A stretch of DNA of 16,067 nucleotides from the NCBI GenBank assembly GCA_027618625.1, contig JAQCER010000008.1, positions 1 through 16,067 on the forward strand, in the 5' to 3' direction. The notes beneath the pieces were generated by a model, which saw only the letters and a program-made list of their open reading frames with translations, did not search any database and was not told where the DNA came from. The position numbers and the translations under genes are program-made. Source of the DNA: Verrucomicrobiota bacterium (lineage in GTDB: Bacteria; Verrucomicrobiota; Verrucomicrobiia; Verrucomicrobiales; DEV007). This document shows, one piece after another, positions 570 to 14,456 of this stretch (within the stretch, counting starts at the first letter, position 1; every line of letters starts with the position of its first letter).

Positions 570-576
570 CTACACA
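554..576 (-). terminator. Hairpin overlapping the polymerase stop codon, weak terminator candidate
   Basis: TGTGTAG (554-560) pairs with CTACACA (570-576) around a 9-nt loop, and includes the TAG stop of the polymerase gene. There is no T-run after it on the minus strand, so intrinsic termination is doubtful. The GTGTAG/CTACAC arms resemble the dyads upstream of the integrase at 9106-9181, which may be chance. Confidence 0.3.
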
Positions 577-2774
577 GATGCCTTCGGCTCCCACGGCAGC
601 AACTTCCCGTTCTCGTCGAAGACCGGTTTCGCACCCTTGTGCCAGCGTCGCATCAGGGCGTACTCGCAGGAGATCGGCAGGTCGGACTGGATAACGTCCC
701 GCATCGCTTCACGCATGACGCGACTAACGTCATCGGCTGCGGATTTATGGTCTATCCCGTGCTCAGGTAGCTCGACGATGACTTCGTCATGCACGCACGC
801 CACAACACGATAACCGGCCCGCATCAAACGGTAGAGGGCTTCCTTCATGCCGTCAGCAGCTAGTCCCTGGAACGGTGTGTTCCGTGCTGCTGTGAAGCGT
901 ACGTTGGCGCGGATTCGACCGGTCAATGTTTCCACGCTCGACGTAAAGAGCTTACGGAACAGCTCCGGTCCGGCCGCGTAGGCCGCGATCGCAATCGACG
1001 GGTTGCAGTTGATTCTATGGAGGTTTAACCACACGTGCGCCATTCCGGTTGCGTTGTACGGTTTTCCATCGCGACTGGCGGTGTAGCCCTGCAGTACTCG
1101 TCTCGCGAATCCTAGTGATGCATCGTCGCGAAACTGGGTACGGACGATGTCGACGGTAGTTTGCAGGTTCTCGGCCAGGACCGCGTAACCATCCTCCGCC
1201 AAGTAGTGCGATAACTCGGGGTACGTTTGCGTGATATGTGTGGTACGAAAGTGTTCCGCTTCTTCCAGCGTCATGTCAACCCCGTACGTCAGCCTGGCGT
1301 AAGCGGTGAGCGTTTGCGCTGACAGGCCGCCAGGGATACCGAAGTTCACCGCCTTGGCTCGCTGTCGCCAGTTCGCGTAGTCTTCGGTTCCCTTTAGCGT
1401 TCGGAATACGTCGATCGGTATTCCCGCCAACTGGGATGCGGTGTACTCGTGGGGGTCGTACCCTTGCCGTATAGCCTGACCCAGATTGCTAAAGCCGTAC
1501 ATGCGTTCGCAGACTGCTGCCAGCGTTACCAATTCGATATAGCTGTAGTCACAGGCGAGGAAGAGCTGTCCTGGTGACGGGATAAACATATCGCGTACGT
1601 GCCCAGACCGCGGTAGCTGCTGGATGTTGGGCTCCTTACAGCTGGTACGCCCCGTGCGCACCATGACACGGTACGACGGGTGAACACGATCCTCAGTGAT
1701 GTTCGCAAAGAATGATTGCAATTTGACCGCTTCCTCGAGTCCGATCCACGTTTCGATGATCGGATCGACGTCTGCGAACTGCCGCCATACAGTTTTGATC
1801 GACGTCGACATGCGGCCGTTGGCGGTGGTCGGAATATTCAGTTCGTGCGAAACGGCAATACGAGATAAGACGTCGATGAGCGTTGCCTGATTCTTGGAAG
1901 GGATGCCGGTCTTCGGTGTGCGCAAGATCTCTCCAGTTTTCTTCGATCGCTTGAACAGTTCACCGCCGATCAGCTGCTCCAGCCGTGCCACGAACGTCTC
2001 GATCGACGCTCGCAGTTCTGCGTAGGACCGGTCCCGGCAGGTCATATCAATGGCGATCCCCCGACGGCTGATGTCCGCGAGTGCCACCGCTGCACGCGTT
2101 TGCGTGAAAATCGACAGCGGGCCGGCCAGGGGATGGATGTGTTGAGTGCGGATTGACGCAAGTTCCTGCCATTGCTGCGCAAAGATCCGCATCGTGGTAA
2201 CCGCGTCCAGCATGGCGTAGTCTCTTGCCTCGGCCGGCCAGCGGTCCAACGGTCGATCGGCCAGCTGGTGGTACCGGCAGCGCCAACTCCCTTCGCCTTT
2301 GTCCAGCTCCACGCCGAAGCGTCGTCGGCTGACACGATCCAAGGATTCGGGGAACGGGTCCGCGTCATCGGCTGCCAGTCGTAGCAGTCCTTCCAACAGC
2401 ATCGCGTCCCAGCAGCGGTTCTGCTCCAACGCGTCGAATAGGAAACGGGACATGACCGGACCGGCGGCTTGCGCAAGAACGGGTAGATCAAAGCCTACGT
2501 TCCAGAACACGAACGACCGGTCCCGGTGAATCGCCAGGAAGCGAGGGAACGCGTTCGGTTTCAGTAAGTAGTGAGAAGCCCCATCGCTTACCGAAATGAT
2601 CACCAACGGTTGCACCGAGGTCCGTAGGTCCACGGTAGCATCGGTCTCGCAGTCAAGAGCGATAAACGGGGCGAGCTGCTGGTCGGACCACTCGGAATAC
2701 TCGATCCGCTCGCCGGCGAAGGATGTCTGCCAAACGGTCGGCGGGGTGGTGTGGAACGGGACACAAACCGTCAT
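570..2774 (-). CDS. Family A DNA polymerase with 3'-5' exonuclease (phage/plasmid type)
   Basis: A 734-residue replicative-type DNA polymerase. The N-terminal proofreading domain is intact: Exo I D41-x-E43 in 'ALDCETDA', Exo II N92-x-x-F95-D96, a further Asp at D123, and Exo III Y186-x3-D190. The polymerase domain has 'TGRTSCKEPNIQQLPR' (about 374-389), motif A 'DYSYIE' with D409 and E414, motif B R470-x3-K474-x3-F478, and motif C 'HDE' at 662-664. There is no 5'-3' exonuclease domain. In motif B the bacterial 'NFGLIYG' is 'NFGIPGG', so the Tyr equivalent to E. coli Y766 is replaced by Gly, a change I associate with element-encoded rather than housekeeping enzymes. The ATG has the SD AAGGA about 8 nt upstream. 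It is the last gene of the leftward replication train, after the PrimPol-helicase. Function as the element's own polymerase is an inference from context. Confidence 0.95.
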   Translation of the reverse strand: MTVCVPFHTTPPTVWQTSFAGERIEYSEWSDQQLAPFIALDCETDATVDLRTSVQPLVIISVSDGASHYLLKPNAFPRFLAIHRDRSFVFWNVGFDLPVLAQAAGPVMSRFLFDALEQNRCWDAMLLEGLLRLAADDADPFPESLDRVSRRRFGVELDKGEGSWRCRYHQLADRPLDRWPAEARDYAMLDAVTTMRIFAQQWQELASIRTQHIHPLAGPLSIFTQTRAAVALADISRRGIAIDMTCRDRSYAELRASIETFVARLEQLIGGELFKRSKKTGEILRTPKTGIPSKNQATLIDVLSRIAVSHELNIPTTANGRMSTSIKTVWRQFADVDPIIETWIGLEEAVKLQSFFANITEDRVHPSYRVMVRTGRTSCKEPNIQQLPRSGHVRDMFIPSPGQLFLACDYSYIELVTLAAVCERMYGFSNLGQAIRQGYDPHEYTASQLAGIPIDVFRTLKGTEDYANWRQRAKAVNFGIPGGLSAQTLTAYARLTYGVDMTLEEAEHFRTTHITQTYPELSHYLAEDGYAVLAENLQTTVDIVRTQFRDDASLGFARRVLQGYTASRDGKPYNATGMAHVWLNLHRINCNPSIAIAAYAAGPELFRKLFTSSVETLTGRIRANVRFTAARNTPFQGLAADGMKEALYRLMRAGYRVVACVHDEVIVELPEHGIDHKSAADDVSRVMREAMRDVIQSDLPISCEYALMRRWHKGAKPVFDENGKLLPWEPKASV

Positions 2775-2926
2775 TTGTCATTCCTTATGGCAAGGGGATC
2801 AACATGCTCTTAGCTGTATTCTTGATCCCCTTGATCCCCTTGACCCCCTTCGGCAGGTGAAACGGGACACAAACCGTCATTTATCATTCCTTACGGCAAG
2901 GGGATCAACATGCTCTTAACTGTGTT
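2751..2926. repeat. 70-bp direct duplication (65/70 identical) covering the polymerase RBS and start codon
   Basis: Bases 2751-2820 and 2857-2926 align without gaps at an offset of 106 bp; I count five differences, all transitions. Each copy contains the minus-strand AAGGA SD, an ATG followed by the same codons, and the 16-mer CAAGGGGATCAACATG. Confidence 0.85.
2785..2880 (-). CDS. Possible 31-residue leader peptide made by duplication of the polymerase start
   Basis: This ORF starts with the same AAGGA ribosome-binding site and the same first eight codons (MTVCVPFH) as the polymerase, because a 70-bp segment is duplicated 106 bp upstream. It then runs through the 9-bp repeats, giving 'KGVKGIKGIK', and stops with TAA at 2787-2785. 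That stop overlaps the AAGGA site of the polymerase, whose ATG follows 10 nt later, so translation of the leader could be coupled to the polymerase. It may equally be a by-product of the duplication. No family is recognised. Confidence 0.35.
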   Translation of the reverse strand: MTVCVPFHLPKGVKGIKGIKNTAKSMLIPLP

Positions 2927-3143
2927 GGGACCTTCTTGAATTCTTTGCTCCACTTCAGTCTCAATAACCGGTTGAAGTTTTAGTGTGTCCGAATATCAAA
3001 TTGCTTCGGGAGACCAACCAAACCGTCACCGAGGGGATCAAGGGGATCAAGAATACAGTTAAGTGAAACTTGATCCCCTTGAACTACCGTGACCCCCTTG
3101 AGTCTTTTCCATAGCAAGGGGATCAACATGATCCCCTTGATCC
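2791..3143. repeat. AAGGGGATC 9-bp repeat cluster with inverted copies
   Basis: The unit AAGGGGATC (or CTTGATCCC on the other strand) occurs many times. CAAGGGGATCAACATG occurs at 2791-2806, 2897-2912 and 3115-3130. Tandem CTTGATCCCC units run at 2821-2849. An inverted copy of the block 'CTTARCTGTATT' plus CTTGATCCCCTTGATCCCCT lies at 3032-3062. Strong hairpins result: 3115-3125 with 3129-3139 (11-bp stem, 3-nt loop), and 3040-3051 with 3069-3080 (12-bp stem, 17-nt loop). The cluster fills the space between the PrimPol-helicase stop and the polymerase start. Function is unknown; an origin, a protein-binding array or a small mobile repeat are all possible. Confidence 0.85.
3115..3139 (-). terminator. 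Hairpin just after the primase-helicase stop, terminator or RNA-processing candidate
   Basis: CAAGGGGATCA and TGATCCCCTTG pair perfectly (11 bp) around ACA, 8 nt downstream of the primase-helicase stop codon. There is no T-run, so it may stabilise or process the mRNA rather than stop it; the polymerase gene follows on the same strand. Confidence 0.4.
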
Positions 3144-3146
3144 CCT

Positions 3147-5147
3147 TCAGTCTTGGGCAGTATCTTCCGAGTCCGTTTCTGTCGCGGTAGCCCGCAGGGA
3201 TTCCGGTAGCTCCCAGACCCATAACCCGTCGGGCTGTTTCTGCGAAGCGATGCCAATTTCCTTTTTTGCCCGTTTCAATGTAATCGCGGTGATGTCCATA
3301 CCGGCCGCGTTCTTCTTGATCTGTTTGGCCGGAACTGGACCCTGCTTGAGTTCTTCCATCAAGAAGGTTACCGCCTCATTTAGGGCCGATACATGCTCCT
3401 GGTTTCCAGTGTGACCGAGGGGGCGGTTCACGTGATTCGCCTCCCACACGCAGCGAGTAGTCGGCTGTTGCCTGTTTACCATCGAAACGTCCGCCGGCAC
3501 CTCCTCGATCTGGTAGGCCCATCCCCGGTCGCAACGGATGATGTTCGCCTTGGAAGGCCACAAAATACGGCGGCCGGTATCCGGCTCTTCTTCGATGCTC
3601 CACGCCACCCGGGCGGCTGCTACCCACTGGCCGCTTCCGAGCACGCGGTTCTTTCGGGAGCGCGTCTCGTCTTTGCTGTAATGCGTAACCGCCACCACAC
3701 CGATTCCCAACGTCGCTGCCAGATTGCCCAAGATACGCATCAACGGTCGGGCGTGTTCAACGTCCTTTTTACCGCCCAGCGCCGCCATTAACGGGTCAAC
3801 GACGAACATTACACATTCCGTAGTGCGCAACATGTCTGCCAATGACGCTACGTGAGATGGCTGAAAGAAGTCAAACTCTTCCTGCTGGCCGGACACATGT
3901 TCGACCAACATCCGGTGGCAAACTACCCGTAGACCGTCCCCTTGGGCGGCAACAATGCGCGGCGTAACCACGGTCCGCACATCGTCTTCGTAGTTCAGGA
4001 AGCAGACGTTCGACGCAGCGGGAAAGACGAATCCGTCAGGAAACGGAAGGCCAGCCGATAGACGGGCTGCCCAGTCGCAACAGATGCTCGACTTACTAAC
4101 GCCCGCTTCACCGGCAAGCAGTGTAACCATGCCGCGGGGAATGTGCCCGGGCCACAGCCAGTCAATGTCCGAAGCCGCTTCCGGTTGGCAGATGTCATAG
4201 AGCGACACCGGCGTGGGGGCAGTCACCAAAGCCGCCGACTGAAACACGCTCGCGTCGTGTTCCCCATTCGTACGGCAAGCGAAATCCGGAACTGCGACGC
4301 CCTGCTGCTCGGCTTCGCGTTTCGCGATATGGTCGACGATGTCCCGTATTTCGGTTTCCGGTAGTGGAGGACGGTTGCGGCAATTCCAAACAGTCGCACG
4401 TTCGAGCAATCCCGGCAAACCGTGGTCCCGTGCGCAACGCCCTACCAGCTTCGTTGCGACGTCGTGCCGCGATACGTTCACACCCTTAGTCACGCCGATA
4501 TGATCCTCCAAACAGCCGTCTATCGCCGCCGTGACACGCAATACTTCACCGGCGGATCCTTCGGCCAACTGCCGCAGCCAGTCCGGCAACGTTGCCAGCT
4601 CGACGTCAAACGGGCTAAGGCCCGTTTCCCATTCATAACGTCCGCCCGACACGTGCACGCTCGGCCAGACGTGGACATTGTCCCTTTTCAGCTCAACGTC
4701 GCTCGGTAGCCGAATTGCGTTCTTCGCCAAAGGTGCGTCCTGTGACCAAGGGCTGCGGAACCAGATGTGTGGTAATCGCTTCCCGCCGGAAACACCTCGC
4801 CATGTAACGGGCAATATCCCGTACTGCCGCTCCCATTCCGCCAACTGTGCGACGTGCTCTTGTGAGTCCATTTCGAGAACAACGATTCCCACGTGCCACA
4901 GTGAAACGGCAATGCTCATGCGTGGTTCGGTCGTCCATAACGCCTCGGCAATCGCGGGATCGCTCGACGCGCTATTGCGTCCATGAGGAAACAGCTCGCC
5001 GTAGGGATGCTTGCCAGCGCTACATTCCGTAGAGCCGCATGCGCATTGCCCATCTTCGGTCCACCATGTACCGAAAATAGGTAGGCCGAACTGAGCATAA
5101 CGTACTACTGCATCCTTGATTTCCAGAACGAGTTTTCCTACACTCAT
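3147..5147 (-). CDS. PrimPol - AAA (RepA-like) helicase fusion, element replication initiator
   Basis: A 666-residue protein of three parts. Residues ~12-195 look like the bifunctional primase-polymerase N-terminal domain: C35-x-C37, C42, 'GKHP' (45-48), the metal-binding strand 'VVLEMD' (E92-x-D94), 'SGG...HIWF' (120-130) and 'SVHVSGGRYEW' (163-173). Residues ~335-540 form a RecA-fold ATPase of the RepA/AAA_25 kind, with Walker A 'GEAGVSKS' (346-353), Walker B ending at D451 and a sensor His in 'VTHYSK' (H489). Residues ~600-648 look like a winged helix ('TLKRAKKEIGI ... WVWELP'). It should unwind and prime DNA for the polymerase encoded next. The first metal ligand is Glu where Asp is usual. 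I chose ATG 5147, not the ATG 31 codons upstream, because a strong hairpin lies in that extension and PrimPol domains normally begin close to here; the SD (GAAG) is weak. Confidence 0.9.
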   Translation of the reverse strand: MSVGKLVLEIKDAVVRYAQFGLPIFGTWWTEDGQCACGSTECSAGKHPYGELFPHGRNSASSDPAIAEALWTTEPRMSIAVSLWHVGIVVLEMDSQEHVAQLAEWERQYGILPVTWRGVSGGKRLPHIWFRSPWSQDAPLAKNAIRLPSDVELKRDNVHVWPSVHVSGGRYEWETGLSPFDVELATLPDWLRQLAEGSAGEVLRVTAAIDGCLEDHIGVTKGVNVSRHDVATKLVGRCARDHGLPGLLERATVWNCRNRPPLPETEIRDIVDHIAKREAEQQGVAVPDFACRTNGEHDASVFQSAALVTAPTPVSLYDICQPEAASDIDWLWPGHIPRGMVTLLAGEAGVSKSSICCDWAARLSAGLPFPDGFVFPAASNVCFLNYEDDVRTVVTPRIVAAQGDGLRVVCHRMLVEHVSGQQEEFDFFQPSHVASLADMLRTTECVMFVVDPLMAALGGKKDVEHARPLMRILGNLAATLGIGVVAVTHYSKDETRSRKNRVLGSGQWVAAARVAWSIEEEPDTGRRILWPSKANIIRCDRGWAYQIEEVPADVSMVNRQQPTTRCVWEANHVNRPLGHTGNQEHVSALNEAVTFLMEELKQGPVPAKQIKKNAAGMDITAITLKRAKKEIGIASQKQPDGLWVWELPESLRATATETDSEDTAQD

Positions 5148-5198
5148 AATTGCAACTTCTTTCTTTCGTCGGAGTGACGGCCGGCGGTGGGAAACGTG

Positions 5199-5229
5199 GG
5201 GCGCTCGAGTGACGGCGAGCGCCCTTTTT
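5199..5229 (+). terminator. GC-rich hairpin with T-tract on the plus strand, in the leader of the primase-helicase gene
   Basis: GGGCGCTCG (5199-5207) pairs with CGAGCGCCC (5216-5224) around an 8-nt loop and is followed by TTTTT on the plus strand. It is a textbook intrinsic terminator for rightward transcription, yet no rightward gene is seen to its left. On the minus strand it forms a 5'-leader hairpin before the primase-helicase start. It may block antisense transcription or regulate the leftward mRNA. Confidence 0.6.
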
Positions 5230-5265
5230 CGTTGCGTCACATGACGGCCAAAAGCAAAACGTCAA

Positions 5266-5306
5266 ACCCCGTGCCGCTTGCGAACGCGGCTAACGCGTGA
5301 CGGGGT
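5266..5306 (-). terminator. Compound hairpin after the Pro/Gln-rich gene
   Basis: ACCCCGT (5266-5272) pairs with ACGGGGT (5300-5306), enclosing an inner stem GCCGC/GCGGC (5273-5277 with 5286-5290). On the minus strand the next bases are TTGACGTTTTGCTTTT, so partial termination or attenuation between this gene and the primase-helicase is possible. Confidence 0.35.
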
Positions 5307-5320
5307 GAAGGCACAGGGCC

Positions 5321-6004
5321 TTACTGCTGCAGGTTCAGTGGGATCGCAGTCACCACATCACTGAAGCCCTTGGCGTTTTGCTGGACGACGATCGAATACG
5401 GTCTCCCCTTCAGTTGACTTAAGTAAAACTTCTCTCCATCCTGCAACTGACGACCGGATAGCATGCTGGCCAACTTGACAAGTTTACTCTTGGGGTTAAA
5501 TGACACATTGGCCAGCACACCCACTCGTTTCCCGTTATATGGGCCACCGTCCAGTTGAAACGTGAAATCCAGTTTCTTTTGCGGCTCAACGTGAAATTTT
5601 GACCTCATCGTCTTCTTTGTATAGCCCATAAACGTTGCCGCGTAATTTCCGGGCGGAACCACATCCGTCCCCGAGTTTACCGTAAACTCCTCGTCAAATG
5701 CCGATTCTTGTGGCAACGGTTGGGGCGTCTGATAGCCCGGAACGTGCGGCAGCGGTTGCTGAACGGGATAATTTATCCCTTGTTGCGGCAACGGCTGCTG
5801 CGTCGGATAGCCCGGAACCTGTTGCGGCTGCGGTTGCTGCACCGGATACCCTCCAGCTTGTTGCGGTTGCGGTTGTTGCACCGGATGCCCTCCAACTTGT
5901 TGCGGTTGAGGTTGAGCGGTCTCCGGCGACTGTTGAACCTGTCGCGGATCAACGCCAGGTGTCATACCCCCAGGGCCAAGCGATGGATTTTGAAAACTGT
6001 TCAT
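5321..6004 (-). CDS. Pro/Gln-rich repeat protein with possible ssDNA-binding C-terminal domain
   Basis: A 227-residue protein. Residues ~20-100 are low complexity, made of imperfect 11-17-residue repeats around 'GGYPVQQPQPQQ'. Residues ~105-224 form a beta-rich domain starting 'VPPGNYAATFMGY', with 'LDFTFQLDGGPYNGKRVG', 'SKLVKLASMLSG' and 'LKGRPYSIVV'. This arrangement resembles small phage-encoded domains thought to be OB-fold-like single-strand binders. Together with the neighbouring primase-helicase and polymerase this suggests an SSB-like role, but that is an inference and no catalytic motif is seen. The start at 6004 is supported by TAAGGATG about 5 nt upstream; an ATG 35 codons further up has no comparable site. 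In canonical SSBs the disordered tail is C-terminal; here it is at the N terminus. Confidence 0.75.
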   Translation of the reverse strand: MNSFQNPSLGPGGMTPGVDPRQVQQSPETAQPQPQQVGGHPVQQPQPQQAGGYPVQQPQPQQVPGYPTQQPLPQQGINYPVQQPLPHVPGYQTPQPLPQESAFDEEFTVNSGTDVVPPGNYAATFMGYTKKTMRSKFHVEPQKKLDFTFQLDGGPYNGKRVGVLANVSFNPKSKLVKLASMLSGRQLQDGEKFYLSQLKGRPYSIVVQQNAKGFSDVVTAIPLNLQQ

Positions 6005-6113
6005 GGAAACATCCTTAAAGTAAGAACAAAACTCGAAAACATTCCGTGTTTCCGCGTACGTATCAGAAACATCGTTACCTAATTGTTTCGCGTCTTCGGC
6101 CTGATGCATCGGG

Positions 6114-6476
6114 TCAGATGCTGCACCACTCCTTCATTTCTGCAGCATCTTCCCGCATGTTCCGAATGTCGAGCAGCAATTCATGCCACCTATCGATACG
6201 GCGCAAAAGCTGCTGCAATCGACACGTCAGAGACTCGACACGCACGCGTGATAACGCGTCGTTTATGGCATCGGGTAGACATGACAGGCCAGCAGACGAC
6301 AGATAGCCTGTGTCGTAGCCTGCTTGCCGCATCGCTACGGCCAGCGTCACGCGATGCCGAAGAATGGCATCTCGCTTCTTGTCCGCTTCGACTGAAAGGT
6401 GGTCAACCTCAGACAGTAAAACGTCGGACGGTAACGCCTCCGCTGTGACGGCGAAAGACATAGTGACGGCACTCAT
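6114..6476 (-). CDS. Hypothetical helical protein, 120 residues
   Basis: I do not recognise this family. The protein (MSAVTMSFAV... to ...MKEWCSI) is rich in Leu, Arg, Asp and Glu, with two long predicted helices: around 'VDHLSVEADKKRDAILRHR' and the C-terminal third 'LTCRLQQLLRRIDRWHELLL'. No signal peptide or membrane segment is present. The ATG at 6476 is preferred over the in-frame TTG at 6485 because GGAGG sits 10 nt upstream of the ATG and directly against the TTG. That GGAGG lies inside the last codons of the four-cysteine gene, so the two are likely translationally coupled. A role in replication or its control is inferred only from operon position. Confidence 0.75.
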   Translation of the reverse strand: MSAVTMSFAVTAEALPSDVLLSEVDHLSVEADKKRDAILRHRVTLAVAMRQAGYDTGYLSSAGLSCLPDAINDALSRVRVESLTCRLQQLLRRIDRWHELLLDIRNMREDAAEMKEWCSI

Positions 6477-6481
6477 TTGTA

Positions 6482-6634
6482 TCAATCCTCCAAATCAGAT
6501 GACGGTTCGGCTAATCGCTGCTCGCGAAGTTGCCAGCAGTCGTCACATAGGTAGGTAATTTGGCCCAAACAGTCGGCATAGGCCGGTACAGCGGGACCTT
6601 GACACTCTTCACACTTCAGCTGCTCGTCAATCAT
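6482..6634 (-). CDS. Four-cysteine zinc-ribbon-like small protein, 50 residues
   Basis: The 50-residue protein begins MIDEQLKCEECQGP and has two CxxC knuckles, C8/C11 and C30/C33, with a further Cys at 22, followed by an acidic tail. This spacing suggests a single zinc ribbon; ligation of zinc is inferred. Its ATG shares one base with the TGA of the upstream HTH gene (TGATG), and GGGGAGG lies about 6 nt upstream inside that gene. Its own stop region carries the SD of the next gene. Such packing on both sides is strong evidence that it is real despite its size. It may bind DNA or act as a subunit for the replication proteins; I recognise no named family. Confidence 0.8.
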   Translation of the reverse strand: MIDEQLKCEECQGPAVPAYADCLGQITYLCDDCWQLREQRLAEPSSDLED

Positions 6635-6834
6635 CACCGCCTCCCCTTCGCAGTTGCGCGGATGGCAGCGTCGAGTTCTTGACGTGAAATGAGACGCTTA
6701 CGGCGAACTGGCCGGTAGACCGTTAATTGACGTGCCGCGATCATCCGCTCGATCGTGCGTTTGCACATGCGGCCGTATACGGCCGCCTCGTTGATCGTCA
6801 ACCAGTTCGATAGGGTGGTGGCAGGATCGCTCAT
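6634..6834 (-). CDS. Excisionase/MerR-like helix-turn-helix protein, 66 residues
   Basis: The core 'WLTINEAAVYGRMCKRTIERMIAARQLTVYRPVRRKRLISRQELDAAI' is the classic layout of the HTH_17/excisionase family: helix-turn-helix, then a wing with basic residues, then the 'I/V-x-x-x-E-L-D' helix. Members act as recombination directionality factors for tyrosine integrases or as small repressors. The start overlaps the stop of the preceding HTH gene by ATGA. The protein ends in a basic tail (TAKGRR). With an integrase about 2.4 kb away, an excision role is plausible; a regulatory role for the replication operon is equally possible. Confidence 0.85.
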   Translation of the reverse strand: MSDPATTLSNWLTINEAAVYGRMCKRTIERMIAARQLTVYRPVRRKRLISRQELDAAIRATAKGRR

Positions 6835-7046
6835 ACCGCACCCCTTTCCGATCGTCTTGCATCGAGTGCGTTCAGTTCGTGACGCACCTGTGCGACCGCT
6901 GCCTTGCGGAAAAGTCGTACACGGCCCGCGTATGCTGCCGGACGAATGTGATGCCGAGTACGAAGGACGTACTCGACGCGATGCAACGGTTCGCCAATCT
7001 CTTGGACGATCCGTCCTATCGTGACCAACTTAGGTGGATAGTTCAT
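6831..7046 (-). CDS. Small DNA-binding protein (winged HTH, MerR-like), 71 residues, first gene of the replication operon
   Basis: The sequence 'LVTIGRIVQEIGEPLHRVEYVLRTRHHIRPAAYAGRVRLFRKAAVAQVRHEL' fits a MerR-type winged HTH: two short helices, a recognition helix ('RVEYVLRTR'), a wing with 'GRVRLF', and a final helix. The ATG has a near-ideal SD (AAGGAGGT) 9 nt upstream. It is the first gene of the tightly packed leftward set; its stop overlaps the start of the next HTH gene by 4 nt (ATGA). It lies beside the CCTGAACGC repeats at 7083-7182, which are candidate binding sites for this protein or the next (inference). Confidence 0.8.
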   Translation of the reverse strand: MNYPPKLVTIGRIVQEIGEPLHRVEYVLRTRHHIRPAAYAGRVRLFRKAAVAQVRHELNALDARRSERGAV

Positions 7047-7183: not shown

Positions 7184-8518
7184 CTAAACGGATTTCGCCT
7201 TGCGTCCGATGATGCTTCTCATTTTGTCAGCCATATCGTCGTTGCGTTGATCGGCGATTAAATCGTTGAGATCTTCCTGCGTATCGCGTTTCGGAGTCTT
7301 GATAATGGGGTATTTCCTTCGAAACTTCTTGTAGGATTTGCTTGATTCCAATGACGTAACATAAACTCGCTCTTTGTACTTCGACCAGATAATTTCCACT
7401 ATTTGTTTAGAAGTCATCGCCTGCAGTAATTCCGGATTTTTCTCATACTCAAGCCAAAGTCTCAAAAACAGATTACTAACCTCGCCGTTCGCTCGCTTGG
7501 TCCGTTTTTCGGAATTCTCGCCAGTACTTTCACTTTGATCCTTTTCCGATAAGCCGACCAAGACGACCTTATTGCCGACGTCCACGTCGGCGGACCCTTC
7601 TGCCGACAAAGGCGAGATGTCAGTGGCTCGAGGCAATGTCGCATTTGCGTCGCCGATCGCCAGTAAAAGATCAATAGCGTAAACCGAAGCCGACGACAGA
7701 TCCGTAATCACGGAGTACCAATGCGTCGGCGGGTCGGGAATTTTTGCAAGATCGTCTAATAGGACGCCACTCTCACCTTGCAACCGTAATTTCGGCAAGG
7801 CATCAAGCGGCACACTAGTTCTTCCGTTCCAGGCGAACTTACTGGCGACTAGGGGCGAGCCAGGGATTCGTTGCCAAGCTATTTCGAACAAGGCATTAAC
7901 CCACATATCCCGATTGTCAACGGCGTCGAAACCGCCAAGCCAATCTCGCCACACAACGCGGTTCACTTCGACCGGTAAGCCAACGAGGCACTGCCCCGCA
8001 TCGGTAGCCGTCGAATCAAATAACCCGTAAGTTACCTCCTGATGTTTTGGCGAACCATTTGCGTAGACGGAATACTGCCCAAATACTTCTGATCCAATTG
8101 GGAGCGATCTTCCGGCAGGAAGCACAATCGGCTTACCTTTGGGTTCACATGCCGGCGTGTCGCCAACGCTCAGATCGCGAGAACAGCTGCCAACGTCTAA
8201 ATCCAAATCAGGTCGCCCCCGCGGCTGTCGGTGTAATCCGCGGCCGAATGCAACAATCACCTTATCGTCGGTTTCCCATAAGTCTGGCAGGTCTGGCGTC
8301 TTAGCCCCTCCAGGGACGATGACAAATTGCTTGAGAACGCACGTCAGTTGGACGTGGTGGCGGGCAGCAGCATTAGTAAACCGTTCCCGTAGACGTTGAA
8401 GCGATTTCCGCCACACGGTGGACTGAACAGTGCCAAGCGGGTTAAACCGTTTCGAAACGTCATGAGTCACCCGTATCAAGGGTAAATCCGAATCCTGTCC
8501 ACCCAATTTGGAAGGCAT
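7184..8518 (-). CDS. Unrecognised 444-residue protein
   Basis: I do not recognise this protein. It has no signal peptide and no clear membrane segment. The first ~120 residues are basic ('RKSLQRLRERF') with 'DDKVIVAFGRGLH'. The middle is a mixed alpha/beta region with many Trp and Gly ('NRVVWRDWLGGFDAVD', 'THWYSVITDLSS'). After a hydrophilic linker near 335-350 ('ESTGENSEKRTKRAN') a basic helical tail follows, 'MTSKQIVEIIWSKYKERVYV ... YKKFRRKYP', which may bind nucleic acid. The ATG has AGGA about 9 nt upstream. It is convergent with nothing and co-oriented with the replication operon, ending directly at the 11-bp repeats. Being an accessory gene between a replication module and a tRNA/integrase it may be cargo, defence or regulation; the sequence does not decide. 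Confidence 0.75.
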   Translation of the reverse strand: MPSKLGGQDSDLPLIRVTHDVSKRFNPLGTVQSTVWRKSLQRLRERFTNAAARHHVQLTCVLKQFVIVPGGAKTPDLPDLWETDDKVIVAFGRGLHRQPRGRPDLDLDVGSCSRDLSVGDTPACEPKGKPIVLPAGRSLPIGSEVFGQYSVYANGSPKHQEVTYGLFDSTATDAGQCLVGLPVEVNRVVWRDWLGGFDAVDNRDMWVNALFEIAWQRIPGSPLVASKFAWNGRTSVPLDALPKLRLQGESGVLLDDLAKIPDPPTHWYSVITDLSSASVYAIDLLLAIGDANATLPRATDISPLSAEGSADVDVGNKVVLVGLSEKDQSESTGENSEKRTKRANGEVSNLFLRLWLEYEKNPELLQAMTSKQIVEIIWSKYKERVYVTSLESSKSYKKFRRKYPIIKTPKRDTQEDLNDLIADQRNDDMADKMRSIIGRKAKSV

Positions 8519-8954
8519 CGCGTCGATTCCTATTTAGGCTCCCGAAACGAAACGGTGGCAATGTGAGTCAGGGTGTCCAGCCTTTCAGTGGCATAACCCT
8601 ATTCCGCCTCGCAATTGTATTCACGATCGAGACATCAAGAATAACACGCGACACCACATCGGATCGTGTTTGCTCCGATGAAGTCGTGGCGTTTCCGCTT
8701 AGGACGTTTCTGTCCTGATACCTACCTTTAGGATGGGACTGCTTAGCGGCGATAACCGGCAACCAAAAACTGTGGACATACTGTGGACACTTGGGGTCGT
8801 TTTGAGGCATTCCGGGGCACAGTTGGCGGAATTGCGACAGAAAAAGAACGGCGTGTCACCTGCAGAAATAAGCGGAAAACAGCCTATTTCTGCTAAAGAA
8901 CCTTGTGAAGGCGCCGGAAAACAGCTTGTTTTCACGGCATTCACAGGAAGAAAA
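8519..8954. other. AT-richer intergenic region with several repeats
   Basis: No convincing gene is seen between the 444-residue gene and the tRNA terminator. The region contains the tandem 11-mer ACTGTGGACAY at 8769-8779 and 8780-8790, the inverted repeat GCAGAAATA/TATTTCTGC (8862-8870, 8885-8893), the direct repeat CGGAAAACAGC (8873-8883, 8915-8925), and a 7-bp hairpin GAAAACA-GCT-TGTTTTC (8917-8933). Short open frames here cross the tRNA or lack an SD. Confidence 0.6.
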
Positions 8955-8989
8955 CCTAAAAAACGCTTGTTTTTCAGGTTGTTTTTAGG
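8946..8989 (-). terminator. Intrinsic terminator after the tRNA gene
   Basis: On the minus strand, directly after the tRNA 3' end, CCTAAAAAC pairs with GTTTTTTAGG and is followed by TTTTCTT. The stem is AT-rich but long, and the T-run is in the right place. Confidence 0.7.
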
Positions 8990-9063
8990 TAGCGGAGGAG
9001 GGATTCGAACCCCCGACACGCGGATTATGATTCCGCTGCTCTAACCGACTGAGCTACTCCGCC
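8990..9063 (-). tRNA. tRNA with anticodon CAT (elongator tRNA-Met most likely)
   Basis: A 74-nt cloverleaf can be drawn by hand: acceptor GGCGGAG/CTCCGCT with a G-T first pair, T8-A9, D stem GCTC/GAGC, anticodon stem GCGGA/TCCGC with loop ATCATAA (anticodon CAT), T stem GGGGG/CCCTC with loop TTCGAAT, and discriminator A. CCA is not encoded. The first base pair is not the unpaired C1 of initiator tRNA and the anticodon stem lacks its three G-C pairs, so it is not tRNA-fMet. Elongator Met is preferred; tRNA-Ile with a modified CAT anticodon cannot be fully excluded. The integrase gene begins 138 nt from its 5' end, divergently. Confidence 0.93.
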
Positions 9064-9093
9064 GCAACCCTTGTTTTATAGGGTCATTTCAAC

Positions 9094-9193
9094 TTTTCGC
9101 GAAACGGTGTAAAATCCGACTACACCCTTTACTACACCCTTGGCCCTGGCAGGCCGACTACCGGGTGTAGACTACACCCTTTTCGCGAAGGAG
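9094..9193 (+). promoter_or_regulatory. Integrase control region: ACTACACCCTT repeats, dyad and flanking TTTTCGCGAA pair
   Basis: ACTACACCCTT occurs at 9119-9129, 9131-9141 and 9171-9181. The last copy forms a perfect dyad with GGGTGTAG (9163-9170), giving GGGTGTAG-A-CTACACCC at 9163-9179. TTTTCGCGAA occurs at 9094-9103 and 9180-9189, bracketing the set. The integrase SD (GGAG, 9190-9193) follows at once. These are likely repressor or integrase arm-type sites (inference). Confidence 0.6.
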
Positions 9194-9201
9194 TCGAAGT
9201 A

Positions 9202-10365
9202 GTGAAAATAGCGGCCAAATCGTCGCCAGGCAAGGCCAAGGCGTCAACGAAGAAGTTCCCACTTACTGCTCACAGGGGAGCGAACCAGTGGGTCAAGAAG
9301 ATTCGAGGCAAGCAGTATTACTTCGGCAAACTCGACGACCCCGACTCGGCGTTGAAGCGGTACCTAAGTGAACGGGACGATTTGGCGGCAGGACGGAAGC
9401 CACGAACTACCAGCGACGCCAGCGGAGCTGCCATCCTGCTGGTTTTAGTGAACCAGTTCCTGACGTTCAAACGTCAACTAGTCGCCTCAGGCGAATTGAA
9501 AAACCGAACGTTTCAAGACTATCACGAGGCCTGCACTTTACTGCTGGCAGGGATCGACAAAAGTCGTTTAGTCGAAGATCTCGACTCCGACGATTTCCTC
9601 CATTTGAGGTCCACTATCTCTAAAAATGTGGGACCGGTTTCTACGAGCAACCGAATACGGCAAATCCGGATGATATTTAAGTTCGCTTACGATCAGGGCC
9701 TCATCGATAAGCCGATTCGATACGGGCAGGGATTCAACGCTCCACGAAAGCAGGTGATGCGTCTTGATAGGCAGAAGATCGGCAGCCGGATGTTGGAACG
9801 GCACGAGATCATTCAGCTCATGGATGCGTCTCCCCCGATTATGCGTGCGATGATTTTGTTGGGACTAAACGCCGGATTTGGGAACCACGACGTCGGGTTG
9901 CTGCCAAGACGTGTTATTGACGTAACACGAGGCTGGATTACGTGGCCAAGACCAAAGACGAGCATTGAGCGAAAAGCACCCCTTTGGCCAGAAACGATCG
10001 AGGCACTCAATAAGGCTGATCCTCTCCGTCCCAAGCCAGTGAGCGAATCGCTGGACGAACTCTTTTTTCTCACTCGACAGGGTGATTCTTGGTACAAAGA
10101 TTCGAAAGCAACTCCGCTATCGGCTGAATTCAGGAAGTTGCTTAATAAGACCGGACTTTACCGCAGGGGGCTCGGCTTTTACTCGCTCCGGCGTACGTTC
10201 GAAACGATTGCAGGGAGTACTGGCGATCAAATCGCGACGAATTTAATTATGGGGCACGCCGACCAGAGTATGGCGGCGGTTTACCGGCAGCGAGTAGACG
10301 ACGAACGACTTCTAAAAGTCTCGACCCACGTGCACGATTGGTTATTTTTGGAGAAAAATTCATGA
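9202..10365 (+). CDS. Tyrosine recombinase (integrase), planctomycete-type
   Basis: A 387-residue site-specific recombinase. Residues 1-70 form a basic arm-binding region ('RGANQWVKKIRGKQYYFGKLDD'). Residues ~80-170 are the helical core-binding domain. Residues ~195-385 are the catalytic domain, with Lys K252 ('PRPKT'), R330 ('SLRRTFET'), H352 ('MGH') and the nucleophile Y361 ('VYRQR'). The first catalytic Arg is not visible: the usual 'TGLR..E' is 'LNAGFGNHD'; and the His of H-x-L-R is Tyr. These changes are typical of a group I associate with planctomycetes. The start is GTG with GGAG 8 nt upstream. It is full length. The tRNA beside it is a candidate attachment target. It most likely moved this or a neighbouring element, and the excisionase-like HTH protein could be its partner. 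Confidence 0.93.
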   Translation: MKIAAKSSPGKAKASTKKFPLTAHRGANQWVKKIRGKQYYFGKLDDPDSALKRYLSERDDLAAGRKPRTTSDASGAAILLVLVNQFLTFKRQLVASGELKNRTFQDYHEACTLLLAGIDKSRLVEDLDSDDFLHLRSTISKNVGPVSTSNRIRQIRMIFKFAYDQGLIDKPIRYGQGFNAPRKQVMRLDRQKIGSRMLERHEIIQLMDASPPIMRAMILLGLNAGFGNHDVGLLPRRVIDVTRGWITWPRPKTSIERKAPLWPETIEALNKADPLRPKPVSESLDELFFLTRQGDSWYKDSKATPLSAEFRKLLNKTGLYRRGLGFYSLRRTFETIAGSTGDQIATNLIMGHADQSMAAVYRQRVDDERLLKVSTHVHDWLFLEKNS

Positions 10366-10524
10366 CTAAATTCGCACAACAGCTTTCAACAGATTATTGA
10401 TGTGCTGCTGTGCCTCGCGGGCAAGGTGGTCAACCGTCAGCGCCCAAGCTCTTGCCGTGAAGCCCTGTAAGGTCCTTGGCTGCATCGCTCCGGCGAACTG
10501 CGAGCGGTCAACACGGCTGACGCT

Positions 10525-11028
10525 GGGCCGAAAATGTTCGAGGCAGAGGAAATTCGGCTGCTCATGGCGGCCGCCGATCCGGTCATGAGAGCCATGATTC
10601 TCTTGGCAATCAATTGCGGGTACGGCAACCACGACGTGGGGCAACTTCCGCGGAGCGTCGTCGACCTCGAATCCGGCTGGATCACGTGGCCGCGCCCGAA
10701 AACCCGAGTCGAGCGTCGGGCACCCCTGTGGCCGGAGACGGTCGAGGCGATGCGAAGCGCAATTCCGCTGCGTCCCAAACCGAAGGCCCCTGAGGACGAG
10801 AGGTTCTTTTTCCTGACGCGTACGGGAACCCCATGGCACAAGGATTCTGAAACGTTCATTTCGGGACCGCTATCTCAGGCGTTCCGGAAGTTACTGGGTA
10901 AGACCAAGCTACACCGCCCTGGGAACGGATTCTATTCGTTCCGCCGCACATTTGAGACCATTGCCGGAGAAAATGGCGATCAAGTGGCAGTCGACCGAAT
11001 TATGGGACATGCCGACAATTCGATGGCC
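10525..11028 (+). pseudogene. Second tyrosine recombinase, truncated at both ends
   Basis: From about 10525 the frame reads 'MFEAEEIRLLM...AINCGYGNHDVGQLP...TWPRPKTRVERRAPLWPET', closely paralleling residues ~197 onward of the intact integrase. The Arg-containing 'FRRTFETIAG' and the His of 'IMGH' are present. The similarity stops at 'HADNSMAA', exactly where the intact copy has V-Y, so the catalytic Tyr and C terminus are lost. The N-terminal ~195 residues are also absent: the 160 bp upstream carry stops and no recognisable integrase N terminus. It has more G+C-rich codons than the intact copy, so it is a diverged paralogue rather than a recent duplicate. It cannot be a working recombinase. 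Confidence 0.88.
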
Positions 11029-11069
11029 GCAACTTCCAGATCCTGGAACCGCTCGATTTCCTGGCCGAG
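11029..11069 (+). mobile_element. 41-bp internal fragment of an IS91-type transposase gene
   Basis: This stretch matches 15394-15434 inside the intact IS91 transposase at 38 of 41 bases. The three differences are all third-position silent changes in the frame RNFQILEPLDFLAE. It begins at the exact point where the second integrase loses homology. It is a relic of a different, diverged IS91 copy. The bases after it (11070-11140) encode 'EQLLDDQDEFVRSVVEVELEAVA' in another frame, of unknown origin. Confidence 0.75.
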
Positions 11070-11189
11070 AGCAGCTGCTCGACGACCAAGACGAATTCGT
11101 GCGGTCGGTCGTGGAAGTCGAACTCGAAGCTGTGGCTTGACTCATCGGGACTTGGCGGTGCGAGCCGTCGCCCTGTGGGTTTCGAGTGG

Positions 11190-12008
11190 CTATTTGCCCT
11201 CACTGACGAAGAATAGCGGTTGGCCATATTGCGACACTCCGAAATCTCGGATCGCTTGCTCCGCTTCGGGGGAGATCAGGAAGTCGGCAAAGCGACGAGC
11301 GGCTTCGTGGCGTACGTGGGGGTGCTTCCGTGAATTGACAATGATGACCGAGTAGTCATTCCTCAGCAGGGGGTCGCTTTCGACAGCAATCTCCAGACTG
11401 ATCCCCGACCGTTGGGCAAGAAACGTCGCTCGGTCACTCAGAGTGTAGGCACCTTTCTGGTCGCTCATGCGGAGTGCCTCTGCCATCCCGGCTCCAGCCT
11501 GAATGTACCATTTTCCAACGGGTTGAACGCCTGCTTTATTCCAGATCGCCTTTTCCTTCAGGTGCGTGCCAGATTCGTCCCCTCTTGAGACAAATGGCGT
11601 GGCGGTCTGAGCAATCTGGCGGAAGGCATCCGCAACCGAGGTTGACTCGCTGATCTGTGCAGGACCGGCTTCCGGCCTGACCAGAATGAAGTCGTTGTAC
11701 ATCACGAGTCGCCGCTCGTCTCCGTACCCTTGATTCATGAAATCCTGTTCCGCATCAGCAGCATGTGTCAGCAATGCATCCGCATCGCCACGGCGACCGA
11801 GTTCGAGGGCCTGTCCACTCCCCACGGCGATCACCTTGACCGTGATGCCGGTCTCTTCCTCGAACATCGGGATCAGCACGTCCAGTAAGCCGCTGTCACG
11901 AGTGCTGGTCGTCGTGGCCAGAGTCAGAGTCCGCTTTGCATCCTGTTTTTGTGAACATCCGGCAAAGGCCAAAAAGAAGATGGCAGCGATCAGGCATTTC
12001 CGCATCAT
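11190..12008 (-). CDS. tupA: Tungstate ABC transporter substrate-binding lipoprotein TupA
   Basis: A 272-residue periplasmic binding protein that captures tungstate (related members take molybdate). The N terminus is a lipoprotein signal, MMRKCLIAAIFFLAFAGC, with the lipidated Cys at 18. The mature part starts with the family hallmark 'LATTTSTRDSGLLDVL', where the Thr/Ser cluster binds the oxyanion. 'VSRGDESGTHLKE' and 'GAYTLSDRATFL' are further TupA signatures. Its ATG has AGGAG about 9 nt upstream. It is the last gene of the operon, 19 bp after tupC; in most known operons tupA comes first. Length is normal. Tungstate rather than molybdate is a family-based assignment. Confidence 0.93.
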   Translation of the reverse strand: MMRKCLIAAIFFLAFAGCSQKQDAKRTLTLATTTSTRDSGLLDVLIPMFEEETGITVKVIAVGSGQALELGRRGDADALLTHAADAEQDFMNQGYGDERRLVMYNDFILVRPEAGPAQISESTSVADAFRQIAQTATPFVSRGDESGTHLKEKAIWNKAGVQPVGKWYIQAGAGMAEALRMSDQKGAYTLSDRATFLAQRSGISLEIAVESDPLLRNDYSVIIVNSRKHPHVRHEAARRFADFLISPEAEQAIRDFGVSQYGQPLFFVSEGK

Positions 12009-12027
12009 CGTTTCTCACTCCTGAAGA

Positions 12028-12759
12028 TCAGTAGATCATTCGTCCCTGCACGAAATCAGCAGTGCGAGGATCGGCGGGACGCTCGAAGAACTCGGTTGAC
12101 GGTGCGAACTCGGCCAGTTGTCCGTTCAGAAGGAGTCCGGTGCGTGTTGCTACACGTCGGGCCTGAAACAGATTGTGAGTTGCCCACACAATGCTCATTC
12201 CTCGGTCTCGTTGCCGTTCCTGAATCGTGTCCTCCACGAGTGCGACATGGGCGGGATCGAGATTGGCGGTCGGCTCATCGAGCAGCAATATGTCCGGTTC
12301 TATGACCAGTGCCCTTGCCAATGCCACAAGTTGCGTTTGCCCTCCCGAAAGCGTCCGTGCCGACTGCGATGCCAACTTCAGGAGACCGAGACGGTCGAGC
12401 ATAGCGTCCACGATTTGAGAGATTCCTTTGGCATTCCGCAGGCGTAGACCGTATTCCACATTGAATCGTACCGTGCCTGCGAGCAGCAGAGGACGCTGAT
12501 GAACGAGAGTGATGCGGCGAATGGTCTTCAACGGAAGGTCGGCGGAATTTAGCGATCCACCGTCAAAGCGGACTTCCCCGGTGTCGGGGGACTCCAACCC
12601 TGCCAGCAGACCGAGGAGCGTGCTTTTCCCTGCTCCGGTCGGCCCCAGCAACCCGATGACTTCCCCACGTTCGATGGTCAAAGTCGGGATGTGCAGCGTG
12701 AAGGCCGCTCCGTGGCTCTTCTGGACTTCCTTCAATTGGTACAGCGGGACATCGCTCAT
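12028..12759 (-). CDS. tupC: Tungstate ABC transporter ATP-binding protein TupC
   Basis: A 243-residue ABC ATPase on the cytoplasmic side of the tungstate importer. Walker A 'GPTGAGKST' is at 39-47, Q-loop Q88, signature 'LSGGQ' 137-141, Walker B 'LLLDEP' 158-163 and switch His H195. The open frame extends 206 codons upstream, but that extension lies antisense-free over tupB in another frame and has no ABC content. The ATG at 12759 overlaps the tupB stop by ATGA, so translation is coupled. All catalytic residues are present, so the protein should be active. Confidence 0.93.
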   Translation of the reverse strand: MSDVPLYQLKEVQKSHGAAFTLHIPTLTIERGEVIGLLGPTGAGKSTLLGLLAGLESPDTGEVRFDGGSLNSADLPLKTIRRITLVHQRPLLLAGTVRFNVEYGLRLRNAKGISQIVDAMLDRLGLLKLASQSARTLSGGQTQLVALARALVIEPDILLLDEPTANLDPAHVALVEDTIQERQRDRGMSIVWATHNLFQARRVATRTGLLLNGQLAEFAPSTEFFERPADPRTADFVQGRMIY

Positions 12760-14388: not shown

Positions 14389-14442
14389 TGTGTACATGTG
14401 TTCTATATGCCCTCATAGTGAAGGTGTGTTCACATGTACACA
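14389..14442. repeat. 12-bp perfect inverted repeat just upstream of the transposase
   Basis: TGTGTACATGTG (14389-14400) and CACATGTACACA (14431-14442) flank 30 bp and lie 15 bp before the transposase ATG. It could be a transposase or regulator binding site, or the hairpin at the terminus end of an IS91-like element. Confidence 0.7.
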
Positions 14443-14456
14443 CTACGGTTCCTGCC

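Follow-up and report, generated by a model that had tools for sequence, protein, structure and literature searches.

The subject of this study is a stretch of 16,067 nucleotides (contig JAQCER010000008.1 of the Verrucomicrobiota assembly GCA_027618625.1; hereafter, the window), in which a run of co-oriented minus-strand genes encodes a family A DNA polymerase, a primase-helicase and a putative single-stranded DNA (ssDNA)-binding protein, with a cluster of short repeats (iterons) between the first two. The window is the entire contig, which stops at position 1, and the DNA further left was unseen. We conclude that the genes at this locus probably serve to replicate a small mobile element that is integrated and cryptic. 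The gene families, the position of the polymerase gene after a primase-helicase-type gene, the repeat cluster with its recurring place, and the relatives delimited in tRNA genes were all read from the sequences themselves. On a wider scale, and with confidence that falls a little short of even, we propose an unnamed, widespread family of small self-replicating integrative elements in Planctomycetota and Lentisphaerae-like hosts, in which a proofreading family A polymerase would be constant, with an iteron origin directly upstream, while unrelated primase-helicase initiators (PrimPol or TOPRIM-like, with AAA_25, DUF3987 or D5-like parts) would be swapped and the origin repeats would change with them, i.e., a replisome chassis with an exchangeable initiator-origin cassette.

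The polymerase (734 amino acids (aa); 570-2774, minus strand) contains the family A domain (PF00476, 2.6e-36) and a 3'-5' proofreading domain (PF01612, 2.1e-5), and matches phrog_17 at 8.9e-71; Pfam gives these two domains only, a 5'-3' exonuclease domain being absent. In a 17-sequence alignment, residues D409, E414, R470, K474, H662 and D663 are invariant, the catalytic residues are intact, and the DxE of exonuclease motif I is visible. The window polymerase has a 93% identical sister, P0030. In a profile search, from which the best 80 of 129 confirmed places were kept, the first 21 rows were 18 planctomycete contigs (33-49% identity), two Lentisphaerae (32%) and one Bdellovibrionaceae (28%), and the best viral contigs with a related polymerase reached 32-36% identity among the matches listed. 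No close relative is present in named phage or plasmid records, where 709 phages and 102 plasmids match, all below 60% identity; the records covering at least 80% of the query show 22-25% identity, among the matches listed. In a sample of the class to which the relative G096 belongs, a polymerase match at 1e-60 was obtained in 25 of 297 genomes, a rate that serves as a guide only because 7 of the 25 were known beforehand. In the phylum of the assembly that holds the window (G000), 3 of 287 other genomes match, two of them being the Lentisphaerae/Lentisphaeria records L021 and L022, and a single-sequence search at 1e-30 gave a match in none of the 94 nearest relatives of G000. As a separate observation, the homologue P0037 (1,235 aa) has an extra PF02086 domain, and its source names it a polymerase and site-specific DNA-adenine methylase.

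The polymerase tree places the viral loci and two metagenome proteins in one clade (15 rows; Shimodaira-Hasegawa-like approximate likelihood ratio test (SH-aLRT) 98), while the window and P0030 are found with G095-G099, L007, G104 and three metagenome proteins at a 12-row fork (SH-aLRT 89); it was made by a quick method, with a midpoint root for drawing only and no bootstrap, and does not decide between phage and element ancestry.

The primase-helicase (697 aa; 3147-5240, minus strand) carries Prim-Pol, an archaeo-eukaryotic primase (AEP) domain (PF09250, 6.9e-18; 66 bits vs a cut-off of 22.8), together with PriCT_1 (PF08708, 1.8e-4) and AAA_25 (PF13481, 1.8e-21). Its start may be an internal methionine near position 5147, as in the 666-aa form P0001. 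Residues 610-684 match phrog_296 at 5.8e-4, and the C-terminal tail, judged by eye, looks like a winged helix. The viral primase-helicases that were aligned (L086, L092, L098) have, by eye, a zinc-finger-like N-terminus and end after the AAA domain. The winged-helix-like tail together with iterons was considered as a mark of elements against phages and set aside as not clean, with a similar tail in the viral loci L101 and L107.

What precedes the polymerase gene changes from relative to relative. According to Pfam and the alignment, the upstream gene is PrimPol with AAA_25 in the window, in L006 (genome G096) and in L009 (G098); it is PrimPol with DUF3987 in G097 and G099, PriCT_2 with DUF3987 in G095, DUF3854 with DUF3987 in G100 and L021, DUF3987 alone in G103, and DUF3854 with DUF5906 in G209b, where a sub-threshold Pox_D5 match is added. 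We take DUF3987 to be a helicase-type domain and DUF3854 a TOPRIM-like primase domain. Seven of the ten upstream proteins scanned carry primase- or helicase-type Pfam domains. Across the 39 loci compared for layout (window included), a same-strand open reading frame (ORF) of at least 250 aa ends no more than 2.5 kb upstream of the polymerase domain in 37, and the other two are contig starts.

The gap between the primase-helicase and polymerase genes (2775-3146; 372 bp) is a candidate replication origin. The repeat AAGGGGATCAA occurs there in 11 copies within one mismatch, in both orientations (2792-3147), where 0.2 are expected from shuffles, and several copies stand at 9-nt spacing. There is also a 70-bp direct repeat (2751-2820 and 2857-2926, 93%), in which the polymerase start region plus an iteron is duplicated. 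The top 9-mer of the gap has 10 copies, a value matched by none of 56 background windows. When intergenic gaps of 120-1200 bp only were compared, 10 of the 22 that immediately precede the polymerase gene held four or more copies of a 9-mer, vs 6 of the remaining 409 (Fisher P 8e-11). The gap is the strict 9-mer repeat maximum of its own locus in 16 of 37 element loci vs none of 11 viral loci, with a background of 48 to 84 windows per locus across the 37 element loci. The repeat sequences vary from element to element, as would be expected, since initiator-specific iterons should differ; in several relatives they are of the GGTTCACC type, which may resemble the iterons of P4. The gap, which the initial annotation did not mention, is thus read as the probable replication origin of the module.

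Evidence that such modules sit in integrated elements comes from the relatives. An integrase-profile match is present in 30 of the 39 loci at a variable distance, and in 16 of the 38 loci other than the window a tRNA or transfer-messenger RNA (tmRNA) gene is overlapped by it or found no more than 200 bp away; the iterated-profile score of the window integrase itself is not independent evidence, because one profile was seeded with it. The order tRNA, integrase, then upstream gene and polymerase is found in ten loci (G100, G103, G104, G105a, G105b, G153b, G161, G197, G229 and L021, the integrase of G161 being reversed), and G537 is a further locus of this order. Three complete small elements could be delimited by direct repeats of a tRNA 3' end, namely G095 (9,990 bp; 49-nt repeat, tRNA-Met), G096 (9,558 bp; 19-nt repeat, tRNA-Val) and G097 (10,452 bp; 16-nt repeat, tRNA-Arg), as well as a larger one, G098 (28,382 bp; 22-nt repeat, tRNA-Val). 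For the ten loci beginning with tRNA and integrase, for G099, for L017 and for the window, a repeat of the tRNA 3' end was not found in the 4 to 58 kb of sequence available after the tRNA. From the three small elements we scanned 35 ORFs without mutual overlap, selected for their length, and the G095 primase-helicase, which antisense ORFs had displaced, was scanned separately. Among the 22 Pfam families obtained are the polymerase (3), integrase (3), Prim-Pol (2), DUF3987, AAA_25 and families of small DNA-binding proteins. None of the 22 is a capsid, portal, large terminase or relaxase family, and the PHROG scan agrees (best 25 of 60 families). The 28-kb element G098 carries type I restriction-modification, HNH and FGE-sulfatase-type genes as cargo (best 25 of 38 families).

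A few further observations on the relatives may be added. A second integrase or its remnant stands beside delimited elements in L006 (491-4396) and L008 (2853-3410), and the neighbour in L006 lacks a polymerase gene between its integrase and a gene resembling a primase-helicase. In L010 (G099; 7531-9342), a Candidatus Kuenenia stuttgartiensis record, the element integrase gene overlaps the end of the tmRNA gene; L004 and L015 are records of the same species.

Upstream of the primase-helicase gene lies the gene of a 262-aa protein (5321-6109, minus strand; no Pfam match) with a Pro/Gln-rich N-terminal region and a DUF669/OB-like (oligonucleotide/oligosaccharide-binding) C-terminal domain, and its C-terminal half is common to L005, L006 and L009. 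Its AlphaFold model has a mean predicted local distance difference test (pLDDT) value of 65, is confident only at approximately residues 150-257, and shows a C-terminal beta domain. The model has 53 viral structure matches at E <= 1e-3, and DUF669 is named in six of the best 50 of these 53. Against the PDB there are weak matches to OB-fold ssDNA-binding proteins (gene V protein, RPA and PRD1 P12; best E 0.02), none of which reaches E <= 1e-3. At the level of the predicted fold, this is a probable ssDNA-binding (SSB-like) protein. The order SSB-like, PrimPol-AAA, polymerase is found in L006 and L009, and SSB-like, DUF3987-type gene, polymerase in L005.

The module as a whole comprises eight co-oriented minus-strand genes, encoding proteins of 444, 71, 66, 52, 123, 262, 697 and 734 aa, and their ORFs are open across 8 kb in the ORF listing. 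The first gene (7184-8518) encodes a 444-aa protein with no Pfam or PHROG match, to which no function was assigned; in the delimited G095 element (L005), the SSB-like gene is preceded by a homologue (E 1e-10, 28% identity), and a large protein search with 8000 candidates scored gave three homologues besides itself, at 33-43% identity. The 66-aa protein (6634-6834, minus strand) is an HTH_17 protein of the excisionase/regulator type (PF12728, 2.1e-9) and matches phrog_66 ('excisionase and transcriptional regulator') at 1.9e-4. The 71-aa protein (6831-7046, minus strand) has no Pfam or PHROG match, and neither does the 123-aa protein (6114-6485, minus strand), described as helical in the initial annotation, for which no homologue was found among the loci compared. 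The 52-aa four-cysteine, zinc-ribbon-like protein (6482-6640, minus strand) comes from an ORF shorter than the limit of the ORF listing and was taken directly from the sequence; it matches Zn_ribbon_6 (0.022) and CEBP_ZZ (1.4e-4), both under the curated cut-off, and in L005 of G095 a protein with similarly weak zinc-ribbon matches is directly upstream of the SSB-like gene. The initial annotation had described seven co-oriented genes at 570-7046, all of which are real open frames, and the gene at 7184-8518 belongs with them as an eighth. Its gene identities stood in Pfam for the proofreading family A polymerase, the PrimPol-AAA protein and HTH_17, while the helix-turn-helix that it gave to the 71-aa protein found no Pfam or PHROG match; of its four-cysteine protein, the frame is real and the zinc-binding matches are weak and sub-threshold.

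Beyond the module lie a tRNA gene with a CAT anticodon (8988-9063, minus strand; ARAGORN; Rfam RF00005, 68 bits), which may be either an integration target or a passenger, and, divergent from the module, a tyrosine integrase of 387 aa (9202-10365, plus strand; PF00589 6.7e-5, 23.2 bits, under the cut-off of 27.1). The five best matches to the tRNA that were typed in relatives are four tRNA-Trp (83-87%) and one tRNA-Met (82%), which would be unusual for the body of a tRNA-Met of the host. The integrase directly matches the one beside tRNA-Tyr in G516 at 6.9e-7, and a profile seeded with it recruits that G516 protein (3.6e-56) and the element integrase of G537 (1.8e-21); it likely belongs to this element. 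At 1e-30, close relatives of this integrase were found in none of the 94 other relatives of the assembly, and none were found in viral contigs. A truncated second integrase (10513-11040, plus strand; PF00589 1.1e-9), which shares 62% identity with the first over residues 190-362 of the latter, is a probable remnant of an older element; since the G096 and G097 elements likewise have a second integrase or a remnant next to them, the site resembles an insertion hot spot. This truncated frame (10513-11070) runs into a 42-bp piece that is 93% identical to 15393-15434, within an IS91-type transposase gene (14340-15896), which suggests an IS91-associated deletion.

As for the ends of the window copy, an inverted pair, GTGTAGT-TGATACG-ACTACAC, with a 7-bp spacer lies just downstream of the polymerase gene (553-577) and is a candidate recombinase core or protein-binding site. 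A cluster of ACTACAC(CC) motifs between the tRNA and the integrase (9106-9180) is the candidate for the matching element end. ACTACAC occurs five times in the window vs 0.73 by chance (none of 200 shuffles reaches five) and is confined there to 555-575 and 9119-9177. The one candidate repeat of the window ends is CGACTACAC, whose 9 bp recur in the same orientation at 567 and 9117. The distribution of the motif suggests that these sites are the two ends of a unit of approximately 8.5 kb bound by one protein, with CGACTACAC as its putative core; ends at 567 and 9117 would put the integrase just outside the unit, as in an element mobilised by its neighbour's integrase. A second copy of the ACTACAC pair was looked for in G000 and rejected, the window copy alone being exact; weaker matches are ascribed to chance, because a backwards control pattern gave 24 matches vs 5. 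At the contig edge there is an array of clustered regularly interspaced short palindromic repeats (CRISPR; 1-233) with four exact 29-nt repeats and three Rfam CRISPR-DR9 matches. Approximately 340 bp separate its end from the stop of the polymerase gene, and the array may be part of the element; the repeat is found nowhere else in the assembly, and exact scans of viral contigs with three spacers gave no match.

Regarding the host, the initial annotation had spoken of a planctomycete element, an attribution that did not hold. In an RpoB tree, G000 groups with Lentisphaerae records, apart from nine planctomycetes, and PF07596, which we take to be abundant in planctomycetes, is absent from G000 and present in 2 of the 13 genomes searched; a planctomycete host was ruled out on these grounds and on the polymerase search within the phylum of G000, whose matches include genomes sharing a test stretch with the Lentisphaerae/Lentisphaeria records L021 and L022. 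In tetranucleotide composition, the flanks correlate with G000 at 0.78-0.85 vs 0.79-0.93 for its own contigs (17 of 20 pieces usable), and the contig may be mis-binned. The right flank holds genes for an ABC transporter binding protein, permease and ATPase (11190-13412), the binding protein being unmatched in 36 other relatives of the assembly.

To hypothesize how the element would work, the tyrosine integrase would excise it as a circle, with the HTH_17 protein as a likely excisionase or regulator. The C-terminal tail of the primase-helicase would bind the iterons directly downstream of its own gene, and the protein would then open the DNA and lay primers. The single strand would be coated by the SSB-like protein, and the primers would be extended by the element's own proofreading family A polymerase. 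Copies might reintegrate, or leave via a helper phage, a conjugative element or free DNA; an outside route or free DNA is assumed because no transfer or capsid gene was found.

Several observations weigh against reading the locus as a working replication module of an integrated element. In the alignment, PrimPol motif I is E-x-D in the window and D-x-D in most relatives with the domain, the Asp found in motif III of the closest relatives is replaced by Glu (as also in P0012 and P0014), and Walker A has Ser for Gly (GEAGVSKS vs GEGGVGKS in L006 and L009); such substitutions could reduce activity. Three of the ten upstream proteins scanned (G105b, G155 and G161) have no Pfam match, and the SSB-like gene was recognised in three relatives only (L005, L006 and L009). 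The gap is not the strict repeat maximum in 21 of 37 element loci, and among the nearest relatives G095, G096, G098 and G099 are without such gap repeats and G097 alone exceeds the background, with three copies. The tRNA 3' end is not duplicated in the window in exact and mismatched searches, i.e., there is no attachment (att) pair with a tRNA end, and the window integrase stands on the 5' side of the tRNA and reads away from it, an arrangement that none of the 16 relatives with a tRNA or tmRNA next to the integrase shows. Lastly, in the similar element ICETh2 of Thermus, a mutant of the primase-polymerase Ppol was without effect on element replication (PMC7693054).

Some of these features would also suit a decayed remnant, that is, a stranded relic with damaged ends and a partly inactive primase, unable to move or replicate: the motif I and Walker A changes, the missing att pair, and the truncated integrase with an IS91-like fragment nearby all point that way, and the Glu of motif III does so weakly, because P0012 and P0014 share it. 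The module ORFs open over 8 kb, the intact catalytic residues of the polymerase, the 93% identical polymerase elsewhere and the well-preserved iterons speak against a relic, which we regard as unlikely. A similarly low credence is given to a phage satellite, self-replicating and packaged by a helper like P4, PICI or PICMI, which would be a special case of the integrated element with a named transfer route. The size of the relatives (approximately 10 kb), their integration in tRNA genes, the element's own primase-helicase with iterons, the HTH_17 gene and the related polymerases found in phages are consistent with it, as is a 143-aa protein of G096 with a sub-threshold match to the small-subunit family Terminase_4 (0.0013; 19.5 bits vs a cut-off of 24.7). 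However, neither the 22 Pfam families nor the best 25 of 60 PHROG families of the three small elements include an above-threshold terminase small subunit, capsid-remodelling or helper-control family, and no packaging or helper-hijacking family was obtained from the window proteins scanned. It is improbable that PrimPol, SSB and polymerase serve defence or repair, acting on incoming or damaged DNA rather than on element replication. Ppol of ICETh2 does limit transformation, besides the lack of a mutant effect noted above (PMC7693054), and the 28-kb relative has type I restriction-modification genes; the recurring repeat cluster directly between helicase-type and polymerase genes, the varied helicase types beside one polymerase family, and the integrase linkage fit a replicon better.

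The early region of a complete or decayed prophage is, in our opinion, very improbable. The order primase-helicase then polymerase does occur in phage contigs with terminase and portal, and around G104 and G105a, where 68 of 76 ORFs gave 34 families, there is one terminase-like match (phrog_19299, 4.1e-8) among the best 25 of the 34. On the other hand, three relatives are bounded by tRNA direct repeats at a length of no more than 10.5 kb and contain no structural families, the viral polymerases form a separate clade, and in the approximately 50 kb around G103, 40 of 44 ORFs gave 12 PHROG families of which none is named structural and two are nameless, though PHROGs may miss planctomycete phage families. 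In a control of 42 of the 83 listed ORFs from four viral loci with a related polymerase (L098 left out), a large terminase was detected in three ORFs and a portal in two (best 25 of 78 families). Since phage controls show terminase and portal, this kind of scan detects structural genes when they are present, and a prophage piece is unlikely in view of delimited relatives without structural families. For these relatives the prophage reading is largely refuted.

We therefore return to the replication module of an integrated element as the preferred reading. The suggestion that an integrated element here encodes replication proteins of its own but lacks capsid, portal and conjugation genes was borne out in the scans of the window, whose contig ends at position 1, where capsid, portal, terminase and relaxase/conjugation families are absent from the proteins scanned, and in the three delimited relatives; none of the latter is a prophage, and their core reading frames are open rather than decayed. 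The expected recurrence beside integrases was found for the polymerase and the upstream primase-helicase-type gene, near tyrosine integrases and often in tRNA genes, while the seven-gene order was not found elsewhere; of the neighbours, the 444-aa gene and the weak zinc-ribbon gene were recognised in one relative.

If this reading is correct, an element of 10 kb with a primase-helicase, an SSB-like protein, a proofreading polymerase and a candidate origin would approach a minimal replisome. Integrated elements commonly depend on the replicative polymerase of the host. It could illuminate the exchange of replication modules among satellites, plasmids and phages, and with the recurring gap between helicase-type and polymerase genes the co-evolution of initiator and origin is directly testable, because many sequence-distinct pairs adjoin the same polymerase family. 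The element could also supply a candidate replicon for planctomycetes.

The recombinases of SCC elements (Ccr) are of the large serine type, and the integrases of our loci match the tyrosine family PF00589, the one in the window below the cut-off. In other respects SCCmec of pattern 2 (CCPol-MP-Cch2) is alike, being integrated, with its own A-family polymerase, a small partner that adds ssDNA binding, and a helicase that binds iterons by its own gene; it differs in that CCPol is without exonuclease domains and primes with MP, and in that the families are different (PMC7581432). The iterons recognised by SaPI Rep and by SCCmec Cch2 follow directly after the helicase gene (PMC7581432), and pRN1 requires the region downstream of its replication-protein gene (PMC4234260). 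P4 alpha and SaPI Rep share primase and helicase functions, origin recognition and residence in integrated satellites, with the SaPI iterons by the helicase gene; the accessible accounts state no element polymerase, and helper-hijacking genes of satellites were not found here (PMC8628076, PMC7581432).

The initial annotation had seen a replicon of its own type, a claim that falls because cryptic integrated mobile genetic elements encoding AEP (PrimPol-PV1) primases are already published (Kazlauskas et al. 2018; PMC5862659). As in our case, these elements have a chromosomal PrimPol and are bounded by att sites, which usually fall in tRNA genes and in one case in a tmRNA gene, and their class iii has no phage or conjugation genes (PMC5862659). 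Of the class iii traits, the AEP primase gene is present in the window (by Pfam Prim-Pol alone), and no phage structural or conjugation gene was obtained in the window scans; direct repeats marking the integration ends are available for four relatives, and for the window there is just the 9-bp candidate. The published elements differ in that neither a replicative polymerase with proofreading nor an iteron gap is described in the accessible text (PMC5862659); our loci share a recurring polymerase family beside a variable primase-helicase. What is already known is thus the AEP-bearing cryptic element in tRNA genes and the A-family polymerase of SCCmec; an element with PrimPol-helicase, proofreading family A polymerase, SSB-like protein and iteron gap together was not found in the openly accessible literature. 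ICETh2 is close in architecture (11.3 kb, tRNA-Val, 47-nt att repeat, tyrosine integrase and excisionase, PrimPol and helicase), with the difference that the accessible text mentions no family A polymerase (PMC7693054). Pipolins are likewise integrated with their own DNA polymerase, which is of family B (piPolB) vs family A here (PMC7385651). PolA3 polymerases, compared by features alone, are described in prophage regions, in which they differ from our loci, and resemble the polymerase studied here in the lack of a 5'-3' exonuclease, the intact proofreading site, the phage homologues and the scattered distribution (PMC12926913).

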